From assembly GCF_035593265.1 (NCBI RefSeq), contig NZ_CP141614.1, positions 2,728,001 through 2,792,000 on the forward strand: a DNA stretch of 64,000 nt, in the 5' to 3' direction. Positions 56,941 to 59,402 of the stretch are shown here, one piece after another. Both the position numbers and the translations under genes were made by a program. How positions within the stretch are numbered: position 1 is the first letter of the stretch; the number at the start of each line of letters is the position of its first letter. The notes under the pieces were generated by a model. It was not told the DNA's origin and made no database searches. It worked only from the letters and a program-made list of their open reading frames with translations. The DNA is from Limnochorda sp. LNt (GTDB lineage Bacteria > Bacillota > Limnochordia > Limnochordales > Geochordaceae).

Positions 56941-57222
56941 TCACAGCCAGGCGGGGCCGTATCTGAAGAGCACCATGCCGGCGAACCAGACGCCGTAGCC
57001 GATGGCCAGGTGGAGGGCCGGCTCCCGGTAGGGCGGGTGCAGGTGGGTCACCGCGTAACCGGCGTCGGAGCTGAGGCAGACGATGGTCCACCAGAGCCCC
57101 ACGTCCCACTCGGCGGCCAGCCACGCCCCGAAGAGGACCATGGTCTGGGAGACGACGAGCCCGATCCACGAGATCCTGGGTCGGGGGCGCCTCGTCGCTC
57201 CTGTCGCCTGTGCTCGCCGCAC
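56941..57222 (-). CDS. small three-span membrane protein
   Basis: 93 residues from GTG 57222 (AAGGAGG 8 nt upstream; GTG at 57228 too close). Three hydrophobic segments: ISWIGLVVSQTMVLFGAWLAA, GLWWTIVCLSSDAGYAV and LHLAIGYGVWFAGMVLF. No family recognised. It may be the fourth gene of the C39-peptidase operon, 72 nt downstream of the Gly-rich protein. Confidence 0.55.
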   Translation of the reverse strand: MRRAQATGATRRPRPRISWIGLVVSQTMVLFGAWLAAEWDVGLWWTIVCLSSDAGYAVTHLHPPYREPALHLAIGYGVWFAGMVLFRYGPAWL

Positions 57223-57294
57223 ACCCACCGCCTCCTTGCCGGGTCGGCATCGTCTCGGTGCGAGGGCGAGGCCCGGCGGCCCGGGCTCACGCGC

Positions 57295-57756
57295 TCAGTA
57301 GCCGAATCCCTTGAGGCCTGCGCTGAAGGCCTCGTTGACCACGTGGGAGCGCACCCGGGAGTAGACGCTCATCGCCACCTTGACGGTGGCCCTGGCGGTC
57401 TGCGTCCCGAGCTGCGTGGCGCTGCCCAGCGCGCCCATCCCCGCCCCCACCAGGACCGATGCCGCCATCCCGGTCCAGTAGCGGGCGTCGGTGGCCTCGA
57501 AGGGGCGCGAGCGGGCGTAGGTGTAGGCGGCGTCGGCGGCGCCCAGGGCGGCGCCCAGCGCCACGTTCCACCAGTCGCCCGTCAGCGTCTCCTGCCGCTC
57601 CGGGTCGATGGGCACCCCAAACTCACCGGGGTCGAAGGCCGCGCTGGGCCGAGGGGACGAGTCGTCACCCGCCGCGGCCAGGACCGTCGGCGACAGGGCC
57701 ACGCTCGCCACCAGCGCGATCGCGACCAGCACGCACAGGGACCGCGTCAGCCGCAT
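57295..57756 (-). CDS. secreted Gly/Ala-rich protein of the C39-peptidase operon
   Basis: 153 residues from ATG 57756, which has AGGAGGAGAG just upstream. Signal peptide at residues 1-28, then GDDSSPRPSAAFDPGEFGV, then two Gly/Ala-zipper-like hydrophobic stretches (WWNVALGAALGAADAAYTY and TGMAASVLVGAGMGALGSATQ) and an amphipathic end. It resembles no catalytic family. Small size, secretion and Gly-zipper pattern would suit a structural or pore-like subunit; that is inference. Confidence 0.6.
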   Translation of the reverse strand: MRLTRSLCVLVAIALVASVALSPTVLAAAGDDSSPRPSAAFDPGEFGVPIDPERQETLTGDWWNVALGAALGAADAAYTYARSRPFEATDARYWTGMAASVLVGAGMGALGSATQLGTQTARATVKVAMSVYSRVRSHVVNEAFSAGLKGFGY

Positions 57757-57787
57757 CGTCTCTCCTCCTCGCTGCGTCATCGCCGCC

Positions 57788-58639
57788 TCACATCGGGGCC
57801 TCCGGCCCCGCCCTCGCCTGGGTGCCGGCCGGGTGGAGCTCGACCCGCAAGGCGAAGGCGTCGCCGTCGCCGAGCAGGTGCTCCACCGTGGCCTCCATCT
57901 GGGTCCCGCCTCGGAGCACCAGGCCGATCCCGGTCCAGATGCGCGCGCCCGGCCCCGCCGATCGAAGCGGCCACGTGATGCCCGCTCCGGTGAGGAGCCA
58001 GAGCTCGTCGGTGAGGACGATCCGCCACTCGCCCGCGCCGTGCAGCGCCGCCCCGTCCGGGCCTGATGCGCTGACCGCCGTCGCGAGCGCCACGAGCGCC
58101 GGGTCGACGATGCGCGAGACGCTCACCTCCACCGACTGTCCCACCCGCAGGGGATCTCCCCGCGATGCCTCGGCGAAGAGCGAGACGCTGGTCTCCAGCG
58201 CTCGCCCGTGCCGCGGGTCGCGTTGGACGATGGCGAGCGTCACGCGGGATGGCCATGCCGATGCCCAGCGGTCTCGCCGGTGCAGGCTCCCGCCCAGAGG
58301 GTCGGTCACGGTACGTCTCTCGTCGACGACGCTCGCACGGGCGGACGCCTCCCATCGCCAGGCCGTCCCCCAGACCTCCCCGGCGTGCCGGTAGGTGACC
58401 TCCAGCGACGCGGCCAGGTAGCGCCCGCTGCAGCGCACCAAGGCGGGGCAGGCCGACGAGTCCAGTGCACCGCTCTCCACCCGCCACGTCAGGCGCCACC
58501 GGCCCGCTTGGAAGGCCTGGGTGAGGGCGGGAGGCGGCAGGACCTCCGCGCGGCAGATCGCCGGCGGGCCCATCGTCGCCAGCACCGCCACCACGCTCGC
58601 ACCGACGCTGCGCCAGCGCGCGGGAGCCGGCGCCCTCAC
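57788..58639 (-). CDS. secreted beta-strand-rich protein, possible outer-membrane-type barrel
   Basis: 283 residues from GTG 58639, overlapping the peptidase stop by 4 nt. Signal peptide at residues 1-30. The rest is made of alternating polar/hydrophobic stretches: GRWRLTWRVESG, RYLAASLEVTYRHAGEVWGTAWRWEASARASV, RVTLAIVQRD, QSVEVSVSRIVDPALVALATAVSAS, EWRIVLTDELWLLTGAGITWPL and MEATVEHLLGDGDAFALRVELHP. The DPALVALATAV piece is like the strand motif of MetA-pathway-type beta-barrel proteins often paired with C39-like peptidases. No enzyme motif. Confidence 0.55.
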   Translation of the reverse strand: MRAPAPARWRSVGASVVAVLATMGPPAICRAEVLPPPALTQAFQAGRWRLTWRVESGALDSSACPALVRCSGRYLAASLEVTYRHAGEVWGTAWRWEASARASVVDERRTVTDPLGGSLHRRDRWASAWPSRVTLAIVQRDPRHGRALETSVSLFAEASRGDPLRVGQSVEVSVSRIVDPALVALATAVSASGPDGAALHGAGEWRIVLTDELWLLTGAGITWPLRSAGPGARIWTGIGLVLRGGTQMEATVEHLLGDGDAFALRVELHPAGTQARAGPEAPM

Positions 58640-59283
58640 AGCCGCGCTCGCCCCTCCCGCACGGGCCCGACCCCCGTCTGCGCTCGCTCGAGCAGGCGGT
58701 GACGGGCCTTAAGCCGTCCTACGGCCTGCATGAGGGGCGACCGGGCGAGAAAGCCCGAGGGCGGGCCCTCGTCTTGGAGCCTCAGGAAGAGCACGACCCC
58801 CGTCCACCGCTCCTCGAAGCGCGCCCGGCTCCAGACCCGCGCACCCTGGCTGGGGTCCGCCAGGTAGGCGGCCCATGGCTCCAGGGCGGCTACCACGGTG
58901 AAGTGAGGCCGCCCCACGTCGACGAGGGCCACCACCGGCTCCTCGTAGCGCTCGAAGTAGCGCAGCAGGTCGTCCCACGTGCTGAGGACGGGGTAGCTGC
59001 GGACGCCCCAAGGCGCCACTGCCCGGCCGATGTCCGAGACGGAGGCCGAGGCCTCGCCGTCCTGGCCCGTGGCGGCCCGGATCAGCTGAGCCTCGTCCAC
59101 CTCCAGCCCCAAGGCCCCCAGCACGGTGGACGCCGCGGCGTAGCCACAGGATTGGTCGGTGCCCTGGCGCACCACGCCCTGGAAGCGAAGGGCGTGGACC
59201 GGCACCGCAGGGCGAGCGCCGGCGGCCGGCGGTGCGAGCATGGCGAGGGTCGCGAACGTTAGCACCCCTATCAGTCTCGCCAC
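58636..59283 (-). CDS. secreted C39-like (double-glycine type) cysteine peptidase
   Basis: 215 residues from GTG 59283 with AAGGTGGGG upstream; an ATG at 59325 has no such site. Signal peptide at residues 1-22. The papain-like catalytic set is complete: Q40 and C46 in RQGTDQSCGYAA, H127 in GRPHFTVV and D143 in LADPSQG. Unlike bacteriocin exporters it has no ABC transporter domain, so it acts outside the membrane. It heads an operon with a beta-rich and a Gly-rich secreted protein. Confidence 0.8.
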   Translation of the reverse strand: MARLIGVLTFATLAMLAPPAAGARPAVPVHALRFQGVVRQGTDQSCGYAAASTVLGALGLEVDEAQLIRAATGQDGEASASVSDIGRAVAPWGVRSYPVLSTWDDLLRYFERYEEPVVALVDVGRPHFTVVAALEPWAAYLADPSQGARVWSRARFEERWTGVVLFLRLQDEGPPSGFLARSPLMQAVGRLKARHRLLERAQTGVGPVREGRARL

Positions 59284-59372
59284 GACAAATGCCCCACCTT
59301 CGCCTTGCTCCTCACTGGGAGACATCGATCGCGCGTCCCGGCATGGATGTCTGGATCGACTGGCGTGACTTT

Positions 59373-59402
59373 AGTCTAACTATCGCTGCCCAGCTACGGC
59401 AA
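59373..59402 (-). promoter_or_regulatory. candidate promoter of the C39-peptidase operon
   Basis: On the minus strand, TTGCCG (plus 59397-59402) and TAGACT (plus 59373-59378) with an 18-nt spacer, each a 4/6 match. The stretch is notably AT-rich for this genome and lies about 90 nt before the GTG start. Confidence 0.4.

Follow-up and report, generated by a model that had tools for sequence, protein, structure and literature searches.

The four-gene operon

The present analysis concerns an operon within a window of 64,000 nucleotides (nt) from Limnochorda sp. LNt (NCBI RefSeq contig NZ_CP141614.1, positions 2,728,001 to 2,792,000 of the forward strand), whose genome comprises 3.02 Mb in one contig. 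The operon consists of four adjoining open reading frames (ORFs) on the minus strand, which encode, in the order of transcription, a stand-alone C39 peptidase, a protein of amphipathic beta-strands, a Gly-zipper protein and a small membrane protein. An earlier reading of the same stretch by a model, hereafter termed the original prediction, had described this four-gene set, and all four ORFs are indeed found on the minus strand where it had placed them. Signal peptides and membrane spans were judged by eye or by simple hydropathy, while genes beyond annotated records were called by our own script on contigs of which many are fragments.

The first gene (58636-59325) encodes a Sec-exported C39 cysteine peptidase of 229 residues, a predicted periplasmic leader peptidase according to Pfam, NCBIfam and family-profile matches. 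It is joined to the second gene (57788-58639) by a GTGA overlap at 58636-58639, in agreement with the coupling that had been proposed for the pair. The product of the second gene is a secreted beta-strand protein of 283 residues, for which beta-amphipathicity and profile searches predict a FapF-like outer-membrane export barrel. The third gene (57295-57780, probable true start 57756) encodes the 161-residue precursor of a Gly/Ala-zipper, bacteriocin-like protein, as judged from alignment and a leader search. In this precursor, the alignment of 38 related sequences delimits a double-glycine-type leader core from -12 to -1, IDPERQETLTGD (57574-57609), which is followed by a predicted mature cargo of 92 residues with Gly/Ala-zipper segments (57298-57573; sequence and precursor alignment). 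The fourth gene (56941-57228) encodes a membrane protein of 95 residues that probably belongs to the cargo as its cognate immunity protein or partner. In searches of Pfam and NCBIfam, the products of the second, third and fourth genes had no family match above noise.

The C39 peptidase

The claim that the first gene encodes an exported stand-alone C39 peptidase is borne out by a match to Pfam Peptidase_C39 at 5.7e-15 and by conserved catalytic residues. The catalytic residues, in a numbering that begins at the first ATG, are Q54, C60, H141 and D157; the original prediction had listed them as Q40, C46, H127 and D143, its count starting 14 codons later. Across 25 C39 relatives there is no variation in Q, C or H and hardly any in D. 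The best NCBIfam matches are FilB (7.4e-12) and FapD (1.9e-11), both ahead of the C39 models of the ATP-binding cassette (ABC) type, albeit far under the equivalog cut-offs (43.7 bits for FapD against a cut-off of 330 bits). A literature search on the Acinetobacter Fil system returned no functional data on FilB. In addition, the family profile matches the peptidase domains of PCAT1 and ComA at 2e-19. The gene is the sole C39 match in this genome, and the same search found no gene for a peptidase-containing ABC transporter there. In a C39 tree the window sequence sits on a long branch and is not firmly placed.

The precursor and its two successive signals

The Gly-zipper ORF is present as originally predicted, but its two successive N-terminal signals and its probable role as a substrate had been overlooked. 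Alignment of the Gly-zipper proteins reveals a Sec signal and a short linker, followed by a leader of the double-glycine type. In the 38 aligned precursors, which stem from Limnochordia-type Bacillota, Meiothermus and Bipolaricaulota, the leader follows the consensus L(S/T)DEE(L/M)xEVxG(E/A), or LSDEELxxVxGx in its short form. Position -12 is L, I, M or V in 38/38 and position -2 is G in all 38, while E occupies -8 in 33, L or M occupies -7 in 34, and V, I or L occupies -4 in 34. At -1, 22/38 precursors have E, 7 have A and just 2 have G, the window precursor having D. Hence, the family conforms to the pattern of class II leaders, with G at -2 and hydrophobic residues at -12, -7 and -4, of which the one at -7 is missing from the window precursor. 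Identity is 44% in the leader versus 15% across the first 30 mature residues. From this alignment we infer that C39 would cleave the window precursor after Asp69, following the G-D pair.

Moreover, models of class II bacteriocins recognise part of the family: TIGR03949 (class IIb bacteriocin) matches 13/28 precursors (best 1.4e-4) and PF10439 (Bacteriocin_IIc) matches 8/28 (best 5.6e-5), the matches lying under the curated cut-offs in the members checked. None of 10 shuffled precursors matched any bacteriocin model in NCBIfam. A family-left-out precursor model ranks the window precursor first among 551 window frames (E 1.7e-5, the next frame at 0.58), and a leader model that includes the window family finds a single ORF in the whole genome, again the window precursor. 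Since it bears such a leader, the Gly-zipper protein is probably what the Sec-exported C39 peptidase cleaves.

The beta-strand protein and the cell envelope

The amphipathic strands described for the second gene product are confirmed by its beta-amphipathicity, with a z score of 2.9 for the window protein and a mean of 3.7 for 21 family members as opposed to -0.3 for 41 control proteins (p 2.5e-10). A family-left-out barrel model places the window protein at the top of the 551 window frames with E 8.9e-10 (next 0.01), a composition bias of 18 bits being part of this result. Several members of the barrel family, including those of family f13 (families of the class Limnochordia are numbered f1, f2 and so forth, the window belonging to f1), end in a hydrophobic strand with a C-terminal Phe, which is the usual signature of outer-membrane proteins. 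A Deinococcus homologue bears the RefSeq label 'outer membrane beta-barrel protein'.

Searches with the barrel family against Pfam and NCBIfam gave nothing above noise. Against the PDB, the four top matches of the 21-member profile are all FapF (E about 0.1), and FapF is also the best match of the wider family profile (E 0.008). A connecting sequence is provided by genome G151 of another class of the phylum, in which the barrel adjoining a further C39 gene is a clear FapF homologue (1.5e-22); hhalign aligns the wide barrel profile with this homologue over 116 columns (E 2.6e-5, probability 75). These matches support, short of proof, the view that the beta-strand protein is a divergent relative of FapF and forms a FapF-type barrel. 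The original prediction had called the parallel to the Fap system architectural only, which understates it, given that the best NCBIfam matches of the peptidase are FilB and FapD and the best PDB matches of the barrel family are FapF.

An outer membrane, which the original prediction had implied, is substantiated by matches to Omp85/BamA (1.6e-53) and LpxC (6.9e-86) in this genome and by the didermic walls reported for cultivated members of the Limnochordia (PMC11456536); the genome is that of a diderm. The suggested check for BamA and Lpt genes thus came out positive for Omp85, but the LptD model (Pfam PF04453) had no match in the genome, which is a weak test because this model misses most diderm control genomes (matches in just 2/14).

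Conservation and co-occurrence

The gene set, whose conservation elsewhere the original prediction had made its own touchstone, is kept outside this genome: the three other genomes of the family (L032-L034) have all four genes in unchanged order, and the set recurs in other phyla. In the three relatives, homologues of the 95-residue membrane protein stand in the same place with E from 1e-23 to 1e-31. As to the surroundings, the operon adjoins BtuFCD-like ABC genes (52051-55104) and a GH3 glycosidase gene (55158-56930), both of which flank it in L032 too, the BtuFCD-like genes also being found in L033. Upstream, the window carries the end of a probable Rnf cluster on the minus strand (60427-63980), with RnfA-, RnfB- and ApbE-like ORFs according to their translations.

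Throughout the class, which was sampled with 72 genomes, the stand-alone C39 gene is usually followed by one for a secreted beta protein of 200-300 residues. The order of the genes varies: C39, barrel, precursor and membrane protein in f1; barrel, precursor, membrane protein and C39 in f3 (G065); and precursor, membrane protein, C39 and barrel in f5 and in the other class, as seen in G003 and in G151 of that other class (L114). In three f2 genomes, a single ORF of 447-490 residues combines C39 with a barrel-like C-terminal part, the latter being a reading of the sequence without a family match (L044 7667-9025, minus strand; L048 8291-9763, plus strand; L049 8339-9682, plus strand). G151 harbors in addition a second, Fap-type locus on the minus strand beside large secreted proteins (L115, contig C63, 6681-8979), comprising a C39 gene (8209-8979), a gene for a signal-peptide protein with LSDDELTTIAAMGSQG (7742-8131) and that of the FapF homologue mentioned above (6681-7625).

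Precursor and stand-alone C39 are tightly associated among the 72 genomes: 32 have both, 10 have C39 only, none has the precursor only and 30 have neither (Fisher p 5e-12, uncorrected for phylogeny and computed on related, hence non-independent genomes). For these counts, precursor matches below 1e-4 were used, and a stand-alone C39 was an open frame of less than about 560 residues; eight seed sequences recover themselves by construction, the remaining precursor matches being independent of that. Presence and absence follow the families, f8, f9, f10 and f14 being devoid of both genes. Two further matches in the phylum (L110 and L111) were dismissed, as they are frames of other proteins in genomes without C39.

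Small ORFs containing two or more hydrophobic segments start no more than 260 nt downstream of 24/35 precursors as compared to 15/377 background genes (p 1.5e-20), in a count whose script passes over the 95-residue protein of the window, which lies under its hydrophobicity cut-off. Judged by gene position, the small membrane gene travels with the precursor.

Occurrence in other phyla and exchange of the cargo

A scan of 84,980 genomes with the closer C39 subset revealed relatives beyond the phylum in Meiothermus and in Acetothermia/Bipolaricaulota, where the genes are arranged as precursor, membrane protein, C39 and barrel; a Meiothermus homologue of the 283-residue protein lies at L127 6573-7349. 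Because the Meiothermus and Bipolaricaulota sequences nest within the f4-f7 clade of the C39 tree (98/91), the data are consistent with transfer between phyla. One Bipolaricaulota contig carries three tandem pairs of precursor and membrane-protein genes, in which the first 50-90 residues of the precursors are 55-64% identical while the cargo is divergent. At locus L136 (2528-8109), three tandem pairs of this kind precede a C39 gene, which a transposase-like ORF (6541-8109) interrupts.

Pairs of C39 and barrel genes also reside on plasmids, namely pTA16 of Thermus aquaticus, pTHEOS02 of T. oshimai, pTthSNM1-7c of T. thermophilus and two plasmids of Deinococcus. The double signal recurs in the precursors encoded on the Thermus and Deinococcus plasmids, including some that lack annotation. 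On pTA16 the partner position is taken by a membrane protein of the CPBP type (Rce1-like), and bacteriocin immunity proteins are among the members of this family.

Between the two Deinococcus loci, identity amounts to 77% for C39, 65% for the barrel and 56% for signal plus leader, while there is no similarity between their cargos or between their partners. At one locus the cargo is a zipper peptide, and a membrane protein of 63 residues is its partner; at the other, an Ntox33 toxin domain (3.7e-23) is accompanied by a DUF4279 partner (1.6e-16). The Ntox33 cargo is encoded on the plasmid of Deinococcus sp. NW-56 (L148 3946-4981), where it stands behind a Sec signal and a double-glycine-type leader and is followed by the DUF4279 gene, upstream of C39 and barrel. 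Read from the sequences, this swap follows the pattern expected of toxin-immunity modules that can be exchanged, and it constitutes the strongest pointer to function.

Further loci resemble these arrangements. Plasmid pCCON16 of Campylobacter concisus (L149 2668-7941) encodes two precursors with a signal and a double-glycine leader (LNNNEMKNIKGG and LNETELQEILGG), and its barrel candidate (4159-5013) overlaps the C39 gene (4998-5591). The Fap-like loci L150, L151, L152 and L154 contain extra small proteins with a signal and a double-glycine leader, which may be FapE-type substrates of FapD.

Proposed function and alternatives

The operon probably serves to produce a small Gly-zipper, bacteriocin-like peptide and to export it by way of Sec, C39 and the barrel, with the membrane protein as its likely immunity factor. 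According to this proposal, the precursor would pass the inner membrane via Sec, whereupon the periplasmic C39 peptidase would recognise the leader and cut after the G-D pair. The freed peptide, hydrophobic and rich in zippers, could then exit through the neighbouring FapF-like barrel to act on the membranes of neighbour or sibling cells, while the small membrane protein would protect the producer. The presence and conservation of the parts, the leader motif, the co-occurrence, the barrel-type sequence with its distant FapF kinship and the swapping of cargo and partner in relatives are read from the sequences; cleavage, transit of the barrel, toxicity and immunity are deduced from them.

Several observations weigh against this proposal. 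The beta-strand protein of the window has a weak relation to FapF, and the window precursor itself matches no bacteriocin model. Its leader is among the most divergent, with Q at -7 and R at -8; the -1 residue in the family is generally D, E, A or K, not G, and the Gly/Ala/Ser rule of class II double-glycine leaders does not hold in the window. In many genomes, precursor and membrane protein are encoded at one locus and C39 and barrel at another. Furthermore, most Limnochordia genomes possess one precursor only, and its neighbourhood is conserved in f13, which is unusual for a bacteriocin. Finally, the Nap peptides of Neisseria, the products of an island composed of the same parts, promote autolysis and do not kill competitors (PMC11798529).

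Two other functions come into consideration. The Gly-zipper protein might be a subunit or seed of a Fap-like surface fibre, in which case C39 would process it, the barrel would export it and the membrane protein would act as an assembly factor. Such a fibre would accord with the distant kinship of C39 and barrel to FapD and FapF, with the proteins bearing a signal and a double-glycine leader at Fap-like loci of Photobacterium and Polymorphobacter, and with loci that are single-copy and deeply conserved, as befits a structural role; glycine zippers, moreover, are known from surface proteins that aggregate, CdzC being an example (PMC5380434). However, the cargo sequences read were free of N/Q-rich amyloid repeats, class II bacteriocin models recognise precursors of the family, and in Deinococcus cargo and partner have been replaced jointly, once by a toxin domain, so that we consider the fibre unlikely. 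Decidedly improbable is a peptide directed at the producer's own population for lysis or signalling, although the Neisseria island, with the same parts and with peptides proposed to act in this way, speaks for it. Single-copy conservation would fit this role as well, but the tandem pairs of divergent cargo and partner and the toxin-domain cargo on a plasmid suit antagonism better.

Antagonism is favoured over both fibre and autolysis because of the cargo swap, the tandem pairs and the haemocin cluster described below, while these two rivals retain their share of probability because the Limnochordia loci are single-copy and conserved. That there is no export unit at all, the beta protein being soluble in the periplasm, C39 a housekeeping or inactive enzyme and the Gly-zipper protein one of the ordinary proteins of the envelope, would agree with the lack of any family match for the window barrel protein on its own but is hardly credible in view of the conserved association of C39 with the beta protein, up to their fusion, the intact catalytic residues, the leader motif tied to the presence of C39, the C-terminal Phe strand in f13 and the barrel label of the Deinococcus homologue.

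Comparison with known systems

Class II bacteriocins share with the window set the leader motif, a small helical zipper cargo, a small adjoining membrane protein and the C39 fold, whereas the window set has a Sec signal ahead of the leader and a C39 peptidase that is not part of an ABC transporter. The contact-dependent bacteriocin Cdz of Caulobacter likewise combines a glycine-zipper cargo with a small inner-membrane immunity protein in a diderm producer (PMC5380434).

The Fap system has in common a periplasmic C39 peptidase and a FapF barrel, of which the window possesses adjoining distant homologues, but differs in its repeat-containing amyloid subunits and in the coiled-coil plug of FapF. 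Pairs of fapD and fapF had been noted earlier in five additional phyla, the substrate of FapD being left open and no double-glycine leader being named (PMC5557850, PMC6173800). The families studied here supply dozens of candidate substrates whose leader is explicit and which lie beside, or co-occur with, such C39 peptidases, and the question of substrate and recognition therefore becomes directly testable.

The nap island of Neisseria (NapA-C, NapP, NapF and NapI), published in 2025, combines double-glycine peptides with a C39 peptidase, a channel related to FapF and an immunity-like gene; periplasmic cleavage and export were assigned to NapP and NapF, and passage through the inner membrane to a possible holin (PMC11798529). 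By its published description it resembles the window system in the bacteriocin-like peptides with their double-glycine motif, in the peptidase, channel and immunity-like gene, and in its horizontal acquisition, but the Nap cargo is tiny and cationic and serves autolysis, not killing.

Haemocin is a bacteriocin of Haemophilus influenzae (LiPuma 1990, as cited in PMC10986600). A haemocin cluster, hmcDCBAI, is present on the Avibacterium plasmid p250, where the products are labelled as hemocin structural and immunity proteins. HmcA has a signal peptide and a double-glycine leader (LSQKEMSEVKGG), HmcC is a Sec-type C39 with a signal peptide, HmcD is barrel-like and the immunity gene hmcI adjoins; the profiles of the families studied here score HmcA, HmcC and HmcD at 18.8, 80.6 and 10.2 bits, respectively. 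An interpretation of this cluster as a split ABC transporter was dropped in view of the signal peptide of HmcC and the barrel-like HmcD. Differences lie in the canonical double-glycine site, in a cargo that contains Cys and is devoid of zippers, in HmcI, which is unlike the window membrane protein, and in the extra ATPase gene hmcB (L144 2922-3629), for which the window set and the related sets read hold no counterpart.

The best functional analogues of the operon are thus haemocin and the nap island, not amyloid. Because both have the same parts, the designation of the operon as a candidate for an undescribed system was too strong: a C39 peptidase with a FapF-like barrel and a double-glycine peptide is already known as a kind. 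What appears new, as far as the mostly open-licence literature shows, is the explicit architecture of Sec signal plus leader, the glycine-zipper cargo, the swap to a polymorphic toxin domain and the spread to diderm Bacillota, Deinococcota and Bipolaricaulota.

In a wider view, which we offer tentatively and would not quite lean towards, Fap, haemocin, Nap and the window operon could be branches of one diderm route defined by a Sec signal plus double-glycine leader, a periplasmic C39 peptidase and a FapF-like barrel. Exchangeable pairs of toxin and immunity protein would employ this route as a modular platform in Bacillota, Deinococcota, Bipolaricaulota, Campylobacterota and Pseudomonadota, and amyloid export would be one of its uses. 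If so, diderm Bacillota, Thermus/Meiothermus, Deinococcus and Bipolaricaulota would possess a route of peptide-toxin export that is free of ABC transporters, and the export of amyloid would be linked to that of bacteriocins.

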